Shown piece after piece: positions 29,133 to 33,559 of a stretch of DNA of 64,000 nt. This DNA is from Buchnera aphidicola (Thelaxes californica). Its GTDB lineage: Bacteria > Pseudomonadota > Gammaproteobacteria > Enterobacterales > Enterobacteriaceae. The DNA lies in NCBI RefSeq assembly GCF_005080825.1, contig NZ_CP034852.1:74203-138202 (forward strand). The letters are read 5' to 3'. The position numbers were made by a program, and so were the translations under genes. Position 1 is the stretch's first letter; the number at the start of each line of letters is the position of its first letter. Below the pieces are notes generated by a model. That model saw nothing but the letters and a program-made list of their open reading frames with translations, had not been told where the DNA came from and did not search any database.

Positions 29133-29762
29133 ATGTTTACAGGAATTGTTATGGGTCAAGCAAAATTTATTTCATTTAAAAGAAAACAAAATTGTATTTC
29201 TATGAAATTAAAGTTTCCAATATCATTATTAAATGACCTAAAAATAGGAGATTCTGTATCTAATAACGGATGTTGTTTAACTGTTCAAAATATTGTTCAG
29301 AAATGTGTATTATTTGATATAATAGAAGAAACTTTACAGATAACCAATTTTAAATTTTTAAAAAAAAATTGTTTAATTAATATTGAACGAGCTTTAAAAA
29401 TTAATAGTGAATTAGGTGGTCATTTAGTTTCTGGGCATATAACAGGAACAGTTATAATAAATAGAATTATTAATAATGAAATGAATAAAGAAATATGGAT
29501 GGAATGTAAAAATTTTGCTTGTATGCAATATATTTTTGAAAAAGGATGTGTTTGTATAAATGGAGTAAGTTTAACTGTCGGTCGTGTTATTAATAATTTT
29601 TTTTCGGTATTTATTATTCCAGAAACATTTAAAAATACAAATTTTTTACATGCAAGAGAAATGGATTGTTTAAATCTTGAAATTGATTATATAACTCAAG
29701 TTACAGTAGATACTGTAAATAAACAATGTAAAGATTATTTAAAAAAAATTAATATAATATAA
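29133..29762 (+). CDS. ribE: Riboflavin synthase, alpha chain
   Basis: It dismutates two lumazines to riboflavin and a pyrimidinedione. It has 209 residues (E. coli 213). It shows the family's internal duplication: MFTGIV at the N-terminus, NGCCLTVQ in the first lumazine domain, GHLVSGHITG at the junction and INGVSLTVG in the second. AGGGACAC precedes the ATG. The rest of the riboflavin pathway is outside the window. Retention implies the symbiont still makes riboflavin, with the shortened ribF downstream of it in the pathway. Confidence 0.95.
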   Translation: MFTGIVMGQAKFISFKRKQNCISMKLKFPISLLNDLKIGDSVSNNGCCLTVQNIVQKCVLFDIIEETLQITNFKFLKKNCLINIERALKINSELGGHLVSGHITGTVIINRIINNEMNKEIWMECKNFACMQYIFEKGCVCINGVSLTVGRVINNFFSVFIIPETFKNTNFLHAREMDCLNLEIDYITQVTVDTVNKQCKDYLKKINII

Positions 29763-29975: not shown

Positions 29976-32195
29976 GTGATGATTCTTGAAATAGTTATAC
30001 CAATTTTATCTCACCGATGTTTTTATTATATGTGTAATTCATATACGATCGTGCCTAAAATTGGAGTGAGAGTACAAGTTCCATTTAGAAATCGATTGTT
30101 AATTGGAATTGTATTACGATATCATAATAAATTTAAAATAAGTCATTTAATAAAATATAAATTAAAGAGTATCGATACAGTAATAGACACACATTCTTTA
30201 TTTGGAACAAGTTTATGGAATCTTTTAATATGGTATTCTAATTATTCTCATATTTACCTTGGAAAAATTGTATTAAATATTCTTCCTTTATTATTAAGAA
30301 AAGGAATAATTTATACAAAAAAATATTTATGTTGGAGTATTACTGATTCTGGTAAAAAAAAATTACAATTACCTAGTAAATTGGGAAAAAAACAAATATT
30401 TACTTTATCTTTATTAAAGAAAAAAAATATTTATAATTTAGAAATAAAAAAATATAAAATTAGCAATGCTGTTTTATCTTCTTTATCTATTAAAGGTTTT
30501 TGTATATTACAGAAAACACATTATGTACAAAAAATTGTTTATGTTTTTCAGAGAAAACATTATCCTAATTTAAATATTTTGTTTTTAAAAGAGATAGAAA
30601 AAATTTTAAAAAAAAATAAATATACTTGTCCTTTTTATTTTTCAGATATAAATTTTCTACAAAAAGTAGAAGTCTATTTATTTTTATTATACTTAATATT
30701 AAATAAAGGACAAACTAGTCTTTTGATTGTTCCTTGTACGAATACAACTTTGGTGTATTATATTAAAAATTTTTTTTATGATAATTATGATGTTGATGTA
30801 TTAATTTATGATACTAAGTTAAATGAAACAAAAAAAATAAAGATTTGGGATTTTAGTAAAACGTCTATTCCGAAAATTATTATTTCCACAAAAATGGGTA
30901 TTTTTTTACCTTTAACAAAATTAGGATTAATCATTGTTGATGAAGAATGTGATTTAAATCATATTTATTATAATAAATTTATTTTTAATGCAAAATTAGT
31001 AGCTATAGAAAGAGCAAAAAAAGAAAATATCCCTATTTTTTTAACGTCTTCATCTTTAAGTATCACATCCTATAAAGAAATTGTAGAAAAAAGATATCAT
31101 GAAATAAGAGTATCAGTTTTTCAAGAAAAAATTACAAAATATCATGTATATAAAAATACTTTAATTTATTTAAAGAAAGAGAGAAATATAGGAATTTATT
31201 CTGTTCAACTAATTAAAATAATAAGTAGACATCTTTTAAAAAATACAGTTATTTTGTTAATTTTAGAAGATAATAATATATTTTATAATCTATTGCAATG
31301 TGATAATTGTAAAAAAATGTTACAATGTTTTAGGTGTAATAATTATTATAAATTTAATAAAAGTTGCAATAATTTATTTTGTCCTTATTGTTTTTGTCAA
31401 GAAAACATTCCTAATTTTTGTATATACTGTGGTTTTTTTTCTTTTTCTGTTCGTTTATTTGATATAGAGTTAGCAAAAAAATATTTAAGTGACATTTTTC
31501 CAAATGTAAAGATATTATCTTTTTCCAAAAATATTACTTCTGAAGAAATTAAAAAAAATGTTGATAAAAATTATTGTTTAGATTTTTGTTCTTCAACAAT
31601 TATTTTATCTACCCCTGATTTTGCAAATCGTTTTTTAATTAAAAATGTTTCTTTAGTGGCATTTCTATCTTTAGAAAAATATTTATATTCTAATAACTTC
31701 AGGTCTATTGAATATTGTGGAAAATTGTATTACAGTGTTCTGTTTGTTTTAATGAATTCAAAATTAAAAATAAGAACAGTTATTCAAACACCAGAAGAAA
31801 ATTTTTTATTAACTACATTATTTAAAAAAAATTATTCTTATTTTTTAAATGAATTGTGTAAAAATAGAAAAAATTTATTATTACCTCCATTTCGTTATCA
31901 CACAGTTATATGGTTTGAATGTATTCAAGAACAAGTTATCATTCTTTTCACAAAATATTTTAAAAAAATATTATGTAAAAAATTATTATTGTTTGCACCA
32001 GATTTAATAATTATTGGTCCGGAATTAATTAAAAAAAGAAAATATACAAATTGTTATTATTCAAAAATTTTATTTTCGTATTTTTCTATAACATTTTTAC
32101 AAAATATTTTAGTTTTTTTTTCAAAAAAAATAAGTGTTCATTCACAATTTAAAGATATAAATTTTTTATTTGATGTAGATAGTGAAAAAAATTAA
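29976..32195 (+). CDS. priA: PriA-like primosomal protein with eroded helicase motifs
   Basis: PriA restarts stalled replication forks: it binds fork DNA, uses ATP to unwind, and loads PriB, DnaT and DnaB. The 739-residue frame is full length (E. coli 732) and keeps the N-terminal DNA-binding region (VQVPFRNRLLIGIV) and all eight zinc cysteines (residues about 442-485). The ATPase is gone: the P-loop GVTGSGKTE is replaced around residues 222-231 (30639-30668) by FSDINFLQKV, with only the lysine aligned; DEEH is DEEC (322-325); GSATP, the KGHHFPD segment and AGRAGRAG have no counterpart. Start is GTG 29976 or ATG 29979. It could be a helicase-dead loader or a gene late in decay. Confidence 0.85.
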   Translation: MMILEIVIPILSHRCFYYMCNSYTIVPKIGVRVQVPFRNRLLIGIVLRYHNKFKISHLIKYKLKSIDTVIDTHSLFGTSLWNLLIWYSNYSHIYLGKIVLNILPLLLRKGIIYTKKYLCWSITDSGKKKLQLPSKLGKKQIFTLSLLKKKNIYNLEIKKYKISNAVLSSLSIKGFCILQKTHYVQKIVYVFQRKHYPNLNILFLKEIEKILKKNKYTCPFYFSDINFLQKVEVYLFLLYLILNKGQTSLLIVPCTNTTLVYYIKNFFYDNYDVDVLIYDTKLNETKKIKIWDFSKTSIPKIIISTKMGIFLPLTKLGLIIVDEECDLNHIYYNKFIFNAKLVAIERAKKENIPIFLTSSSLSITSYKEIVEKRYHEIRVSVFQEKITKYHVYKNTLIYLKKERNIGIYSVQLIKIISRHLLKNTVILLILEDNNIFYNLLQCDNCKKMLQCFRCNNYYKFNKSCNNLFCPYCFCQENIPNFCIYCGFFSFSVRLFDIELAKKYLSDIFPNVKILSFSKNITSEEIKKNVDKNYCLDFCSSTIILSTPDFANRFLIKNVSLVAFLSLEKYLYSNNFRSIEYCGKLYYSVLFVLMNSKLKIRTVIQTPEENFLLTTLFKKNYSYFLNELCKNRKNLLLPPFRYHTVIWFECIQEQVIILFTKYFKKILCKKLLLFAPDLIIIGPELIKKRKYTNCYYSKILFSYFSITFLQNILVFFSKKISVHSQFKDINFLFDVDSEKN

Positions 32196-32281: not shown

Positions 32282-33559
32282 ATGAATATTATAGAAGAAT
32301 TACATCAAAAAAATTTAATTTTTAATATTTCAAATAATCAAGATTTAATAAAAAAAATTAATGAGAAAAGTATTTCATTATATTGTGGTTTTGATCCTAC
32401 AGCAGAAAGTTTACACGTTGGACATTTATTACCTTTGTTAGTGTTGAGGTTATTTCAAAAATGTGGACATAAACCAATAGTTTTAATTGGAGGAGCTACT
32501 AGCTTAATAGGTGATCCTAGTTTTAAAGAGAAAAAAAGAGAAGATATTTGTTTTGAAGTAATAAAAATTTGGGAAAAAAATATTGTTACTCAAATAAAAA
32601 AATTTTTAAATTTTAATCATCATTGTAATTCAGCATTAATAATAAATAATTATGAATGGTTTAATGAGATTAATTTATTAACCTTTTTAAAAGATATTGG
32701 AAAATATTTTTCTATTAATAGCATGATTAATAAAGAGTCAGTAAAAAAAAGAATTCAACGAATTGATCAAGGTATTTCTTTTACAGAATTTTCTTATAGT
32801 TTATTACAGGCGTATGATTATTTTTTTTTGTATAAAAAATATCACACTATTCTTCAAATAGGAGGATCTGATCAATGGGGAAATATTGTTTCAGGTATTA
32901 ATTTAATTCGAAAAAAATTAAACAAACAAGTTTTTGGTTTAACTATTCCTTTATTTATTAAATCTAATGGAAAAAAATTTGGAAAAACTGAATCAGGAAA
33001 TATTTGGTTAGATCCTAAAAAAACCACTCCATATGAATTTTATCAATTTTGGATGAATATCACTGATAGTGAAGCTTTATATTTTGCTAATATTTTAAAT
33101 ATTACTTCAATGCATGAAGTAAATACTTTTCAAAAAAAAGATAAAAATTTAATAATAGAAATGAAAAAAATATTAGCAAAAGAAATAACTATTTTAGTTC
33201 ATGGAAAAAAAGAATATACAATAGCAAAAAATATTTCTAATAATTTATTTTCCAATAATATTATTGGATTAGAAGAATCAGATTTTCAATGTTTTTTCAC
33301 AAATAGTTCTATTAAAAATATTCCTATCTTTTATTTCAAATATGTAGATAATATACAGTTAAGAAAATTATTAACAGAAGTAAAGTTGTCTACTTCTTGG
33401 AAACATGCTTCTAATTTAATTGTATCTAAAGGAATTAAAATTAATGGAAAAATAGAAAGTAATTCTAATTATTTTATTACATGTAAAGATGTTTTATTTA
33501 AAAAATATACTATTTTATGTAAAGGTAAGAAAAAATTTATACTTGTAAAATGGATATAA
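32282..33559 (+). CDS. tyrS: Tyrosyl-tRNA synthetase
   Basis: Class I synthetase, 425 residues (E. coli 424). CGFDPTAESLHVGHLL carries the HIGH-type motif (His45, His48). GGSDQWGNI and the KFGKTESGNIWLD loop (KMSKS equivalent) follow. The C-terminal S4-like RNA-binding domain (about 360-425) is present with KLSTSWKHASNLIVSKGIKING-type residues. It converges on sufA with a 9 bp gap. Confidence 0.96.
   Translation: MNIIEELHQKNLIFNISNNQDLIKKINEKSISLYCGFDPTAESLHVGHLLPLLVLRLFQKCGHKPIVLIGGATSLIGDPSFKEKKREDICFEVIKIWEKNIVTQIKKFLNFNHHCNSALIINNYEWFNEINLLTFLKDIGKYFSINSMINKESVKKRIQRIDQGISFTEFSYSLLQAYDYFFLYKKYHTILQIGGSDQWGNIVSGINLIRKKLNKQVFGLTIPLFIKSNGKKFGKTESGNIWLDPKKTTPYEFYQFWMNITDSEALYFANILNITSMHEVNTFQKKDKNLIIEMKKILAKEITILVHGKKEYTIAKNISNNLFSNNIIGLEESDFQCFFTNSSIKNIPIFYFKYVDNIQLRKLLTEVKLSTSWKHASNLIVSKGIKINGKIESNSNYFITCKDVLFKKYTILCKGKKKFILVKWI

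Follow-up and report, generated by a model that had tools for sequence, protein, structure and literature searches.

A PriA without its helicase motor is retained under purifying selection in Buchnera, probably as a platform for replication restart

A pseudohelicase form of PriA is already known as a kind, from Deinococcus. PriA of Deinococcus radiodurans lacks ATPase and helicase activity, yet it retains binding to forks and to DnaB (PMC4504706). The E. coli protein binds the fork, its zinc region moves so that a pore encloses the lagging-strand ssDNA, and the partners PriB and DnaT dock (PMC10175261, PMC13377028), with HD2/CTD as the docking site of DnaT (PMC13377028). Since the E. coli DnaB-loading assay was performed with PriA K230A (PMC10175261), DnaB loading needs no motor. 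The helicase-dead allele priA300, however, depends on PriB, and cells that combine it with a deletion of priB are severely sick (PMC9713433). Actinobacterial PriA-like proteins are smaller and very divergent (PMC1193525); they were compared here by description and by weak PRK14873 matches to the frame under study only. Nearly all bacteria retain the PriA motor, though E. coli survives without it.

The window, that is, the whole stretch of 64,000 nucleotides analysed, comes from Buchnera aphidicola (Thelaxes californica). It carries a helicase-dead priA at 29976..32195 (+ strand, 739 codons; profile and structure homology), flanked upstream by ribE for riboflavin synthase (29133..29762, +) and downstream by tyrS (32282..33559, +), which served as the control for dN/dS. 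The frame opens with GTG at 29976, followed by ATG as codon 2 at 29979; the latter is the likelier start. Matches to Pfam, NCBIfam and solved structures identify the frame as PriA over its whole length, the best solved match being E. coli PriA (8fak, E=6.6e-64, residues 3-735, collinear). An out-of-frame nonsense stretch within priA was ruled out, since the alignment is collinear from end to end. The NCBIfam model PRK05580 (priA) matches at E=5.8e-106, yet under its cut-off, and the curated equivalog cut-offs are likewise missed (PRK05580.1-1, 355 vs 858 bits; TIGR00595, 212 vs 230). The 3'-DNA-binding domain, 3'BD (PF17764; 29988..30287, +), is recovered over the cut-off at E=2.4e-17, and its residues F16, Y18 and F36 (E. 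coli numbers) are near-invariant among Buchnera. It is followed by a winged-helix domain, WH (PF21213; 30330..30506, +; E=1.7e-4, below cut-off), by a cysteine-rich region whose eight zinc cysteines were placed by alignment (31299..31430, +), and by the LPPF segment with the C-terminal domain, CTD (PF18074; 31881..32180, +; weak, E=0.22). A single-sequence AlphaFold model of the protein had a mean pLDDT of 33.5 and was left unused. The genome consists of 534 kb plus two small contigs. One of these (8164 bp, pLeu) encodes leuB, leuC, leuD and repA, and all its matches in the plasmid collection are to Buchnera plasmids; the other (3208 bp, pTrp) encodes TrpE- and TrpG-like proteins. The lineage belongs to a genus of which three species were available.

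The helicase motifs of this PriA are largely erased. Motif I, the P-loop (30648..30668, +), reads INFLQKV vs ITGSGKT in active PriA (in wider context, DINFLQKV in place of GITGSGKT), and with the glycines and the threonine gone, the P-loop lysine K230 (codon 30663-30665) is the sole residue left. Motif II (30939..30950, +) is partly kept as DEEC vs DEEH, VIDEEHD having become IVDEECD, so that D, E and E persist and His is replaced by Cys. Motif III (31044..31058, +) is dead, with TSSSL vs GSATP and loss of the Gly and Ala, and so is motif V (31626..31643, +), with NRFLIK vs KGHHFP (wider, NRFLIKN in place of KGHHFPD). In motif VI (31734..31757, +), where active PriA has GRAGR, this protein has FVLMN, and both R584 and R587 are missing. 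It therefore lacks the Walker A GxGKT, motif III, the motif V KGHH and the motif VI arginines by which an active helicase is recognised, whereas the eight-cysteine zinc region typical of the PriA family is complete (8/8). The initial annotation had described a full-length PriA with no recognisable helicase active site. Alignment bears out its loss of the P-loop glycines, GSATP, KGHHFPD and the motif VI arginines, as well as the retention of the eight zinc cysteines, the N-terminal 3'BD and LPPF, but the DEEH box that it reported as gone has lost only its His, and K230 is also still in place. A general decay of ATPases across the genome was ruled out, the P-loops of DnaC and Rep being intact.

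In the Buchnera protein, as in D. radiodurans PriA, Walker A and B residues are lost and the rest is kept. The two differ in that the loss of activity was measured in Deinococcus, whereas in Buchnera it is predicted from sequence. Moreover, the P-loop lysine is replaced by Arg in Deinococcus and retained in Buchnera, where the glycines, the Thr and the motif VI arginines are gone, and Deinococcus is free-living, whereas Buchnera is an insect symbiont with DnaT and DnaC and no detectable PriB or PriC. With E. coli PriA it shares an identical domain order, and helicase-dead alleles of the latter (priA300/K230A) still assemble the primosome. The initial annotation had drawn on priA300 as a precedent. 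That analogy does not carry over directly, because priA300 works via PriB, whereas here priB is absent from its usual place between rpsF and rpsR, PriC is undetected and the PriB-docking residues are not conserved. We found no earlier report of a degenerate Buchnera PriA in the literature searched, which included few subscription papers. The new elements are that the motorless state extends across Buchnera under selection, that it arose independently in other symbionts, and that it occurs where neither PriB nor PriC accompanies it, a combination that by E. coli genetics should be severely defective (PMC9713433).

The loss is common to Buchnera. The comparison covered 37 PriA reading frames of Buchnera, drawn from six genera; frames were assigned to Buchnera by priA-tyrS adjacency or by membership in a genus with such adjacency, and for G212, whose gene is frameshifted, the long downstream frame was used. 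G227, G355, A357, G538, K544, G545, H546, G583, R584 and R587 are each found in 0/37 frames, and G229 and T231 are kept in 1/37 each. By contrast, K230 and E322 persist in 36/37 each, S356 in 37/37, and each of the eight zinc cysteines in 37/37. The low GC content (about 20%), which favours AAA, could account in part for the retention of K230. In the sister species G001, PriA is full-length and 45% identical to that of the window; its ATPase motifs are lost too, and its motif II is truly erased (IIYQDYS). With G001 and all 37 aligned Buchnera PriA degenerate, the common loss in relatives that the initial annotation had proposed to look for is borne out, and an accident confined to one species was ruled out. 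In a tree limited by composition bias and long branches, the 37 proteins form one clade (SH-aLRT 100), separate from the other lineages with a degenerate PriA. Because of this monophyly and the uniform loss, the motor was probably lost no later than in the last common ancestor of living Buchnera, a single event being the simplest reading; parallel losses within Buchnera are possible.

Selection on the degenerate protein was measured with a custom-written pairwise maximum-likelihood codon model (GY94 type, F3x4) in a joint fit to seven pairs of closely related Buchnera. The joint dN/dS of PriA is 0.115 (0.104-0.127), and twice the log-likelihood difference between omega=1 and the fitted value is 1069. 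By domain, dN/dS is 0.115 in 3'BD, 0.167 in WH, 0.091 in lobe 1, 0.065 in the zinc region, 0.132 in lobe 2 and 0.144 in the CTD; the zinc and DNA-binding parts thus lie far below 1, in line with the check that the initial annotation had proposed. In the comparison with G001, omega=1 is rejected in every domain, though dS is saturated there. For the same seven pairs, tyrS has a dN/dS of 0.071. Buchnera PriA is therefore not in neutral decay, but under clear purifying selection after the loss of the motor, somewhat weaker than that on tyrS. In having degenerate Walker motifs while the remainder is under selection, it resembles a pseudohelicase of the Deinococcus type.

Several Buchnera have nevertheless broken or lost the gene, so priA is dispensable in some lineages. 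Of the 36 species of genus g98, about 18 have a full-length priA, nine an intact frame with a reduced winged helix and nine a frameshift or stop, and in some other Buchnera priA is not detectable. WH occupancy was checked in six of the nine winged-helix-reduced frames. It is 23-25/85 positions in L124, L210, L212, L213 and L215, and 49/85 in L214, where the domain is partly gone; these six proteins are 662-693 aa long. Three more g98 species have 665-aa frames, likewise winged-helix-reduced, as judged by coordinates only. A second module, the winged helix, is thus being dropped in some g98 species while the remainder of PriA stays. Frameshifts, the other sign that the initial annotation had watched for in close relatives, give a divided picture: G001 is full-length, whereas priA of G002 is interrupted by a single frameshift at an A15 run (L079 11334), its P-loop being degenerate too. 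Frameshifts were also observed at or close to an A10 run in G212 (L122 1484) and a long A run in G032 (L022 near 1552), and in G002, G212 and G032 alike long open frames lie on both flanks. Transcriptional slippage has been proposed as a correction of frameshifts in Buchnera, but a genome-wide survey found no such case (PMC5574713).

Among the restart partners about which the initial annotation had asked, dnaT, dnaC and rep are present in the genome and only priB is missing from its usual place. The genes dnaT (L248 10143-10703, - strand) and dnaC are complete and adjoining; DnaC keeps GRPGTGK, and Rep has its AGAGSGKT P-loop and DEYQD box intact. The gap between rpsF and rpsR is 77 bp, too small for priB. 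The PriB model TIGR04418 gave no match over cut-off, and its weak matches, in frames of 160-214 aa, were taken as SSB. PriC (PF07445) was absent from all 36 genomes searched, whereas the E. coli control matched. Furthermore, Buchnera PriA does not conserve the residues on which PriB docks in the E. coli protein (D438, T482, H483). The DnaT linker is net positive in 19 of the 22 Buchnera DnaT aligned, that of the present genome included; E. coli DnaT served as yardstick in this comparison. In E. coli, DnaT docks on PriB through this linker, which is acidic there (PMC13377028). The shift would fit an abandonment of PriB binding, but a bias of AT-rich DNA towards Lys could be an alternative cause. 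dnaT co-occurs with every intact Buchnera priA examined. Seven Buchnera without priA likewise lack DnaT and keep DnaC, and dnaT persists in g98 species whose priA is broken. The co-loss of PriA and DnaT was dropped as statistical proof, since it amounts to one or two events only (DnaC+Efp tree), and the association, not being statistically independent, is suggestive.

Homology and selection were computed directly; the loading role we infer from them. We consider it likely that Buchnera PriA is a pseudohelicase serving as an ATP-independent, fork-binding platform that recruits DnaT and then DnaC-DnaB without PriB or PriC; the initial annotation had raised such a loader platform, and the results support its reading in part. 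It would bind abandoned forks via 3'BD, the helicase lobes, the zinc region and the CTD without hydrolysing ATP, and would present HD2/CTD to DnaT, which would bring in DnaC-DnaB directly, with use of neither PriB nor PriC. If the lagging strand has to be unwound, Rep may do so, though Rep was undetected in G145 and G212, which have a degenerate PriA and DnaT. Speculatively, the kept K230 and E322 may pair as a structural lock in the empty nucleotide site. We suggest more tentatively that this would be a restart route new to E. coli genetics, in which an ATP-independent PriA works with DnaT and DnaC, without PriB and PriC and with a de-acidified DnaT linker. Such a route runs against the dependence of helicase-dead PriA on PriB in E. 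coli, and it makes PriB-free, ATP-free loading directly testable.

Other explanations have to be weighed against this platform. The initial annotation had offered, as its own alternative, a gene decaying before its first stop. Under such slow decay the helicase would go first and the remainder drift under relaxed selection with no stop fixed yet, which fits the faster evolution of PriA relative to tyrS, the g98 species with a frameshift or stop (9/36) or with the winged helix mostly or partly lost (nine more), and the Buchnera without a detectable priA. It is nonetheless improbable and is rejected as a general account, given that every domain has a dN/dS of about 0.1, the dead lobe 1 included, that no zinc cysteine is lost in any of the 37 frames, and that full-length frames persist over divergences at which dS is saturated; at the composition of this genome, moreover, an open frame of 739 codons would be expected by chance with a probability of about 10^-26 to 10^-31. 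Somewhat less improbable, yet still unlikely, is a role outside restart, such as protecting DNA or keeping polymerase away from stalled forks, in which case DnaT and DnaC would act only in oriC initiation or elsewhere. Degenerate PriA is similarly constrained in symbionts without detectable DnaT, and DnaT outlasts priA in g98, as such a role would allow; against it stand the company of dnaT with all intact Buchnera priA examined and the good conservation of the DnaT C-terminal domain, which in E. coli binds PriA and ssDNA. As for a cryptic ATPase, in which K230, E322 and S356 together with a rebuilt loop would bind or slowly hydrolyse ATP, the near-universal retention of these three residues is what speaks for it. 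The absence of Gly at 227 or 355 and of R584 and R587 from all frames, and the near-complete loss of G229 and T231, make it very improbable. In E. coli PriA, K230R by itself abolishes activity (PMC4504706).

Degenerate PriA is also found outside Buchnera. Genera g113 and g6 have PriA with loss of the same class, which the tree places with active PriA and outside Buchnera, and there have been at least two independent motor losses in other insect symbionts. A similar loss is seen in G089. The eight zinc cysteines are present in 9/9 of these other degenerate PriA. The degenerate PriA of g6 (L119, L120, L125, L127) and of g113 (L123, L129, L130, L131) is under selection, with a dN/dS of 0.103. In the g6 and g113 genomes no DnaT was detected, and matches to PF01695 (DnaC-type) were weak only; the CTD of their PriA is no less constrained. 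The g113 plasmid resembles plasmids of reed-beetle (Plateumaris, Macroplea) symbionts. Since g6 and the reed-beetle symbionts are without detectable DnaT, DnaT need not be the partner of degenerate PriA everywhere. The long natural experiment in Buchnera, with the motor gone and the platform kept, together with its at least two repeats, points to the parts of PriA that are indispensable. 'priA present' in lists of minimal genomes does not equal helicase present. A partly degenerate PriA was also observed in three reduced genomes, G017 (L012), G206 (L081) and G244 (L098), possibly as intermediate stages of motor loss.
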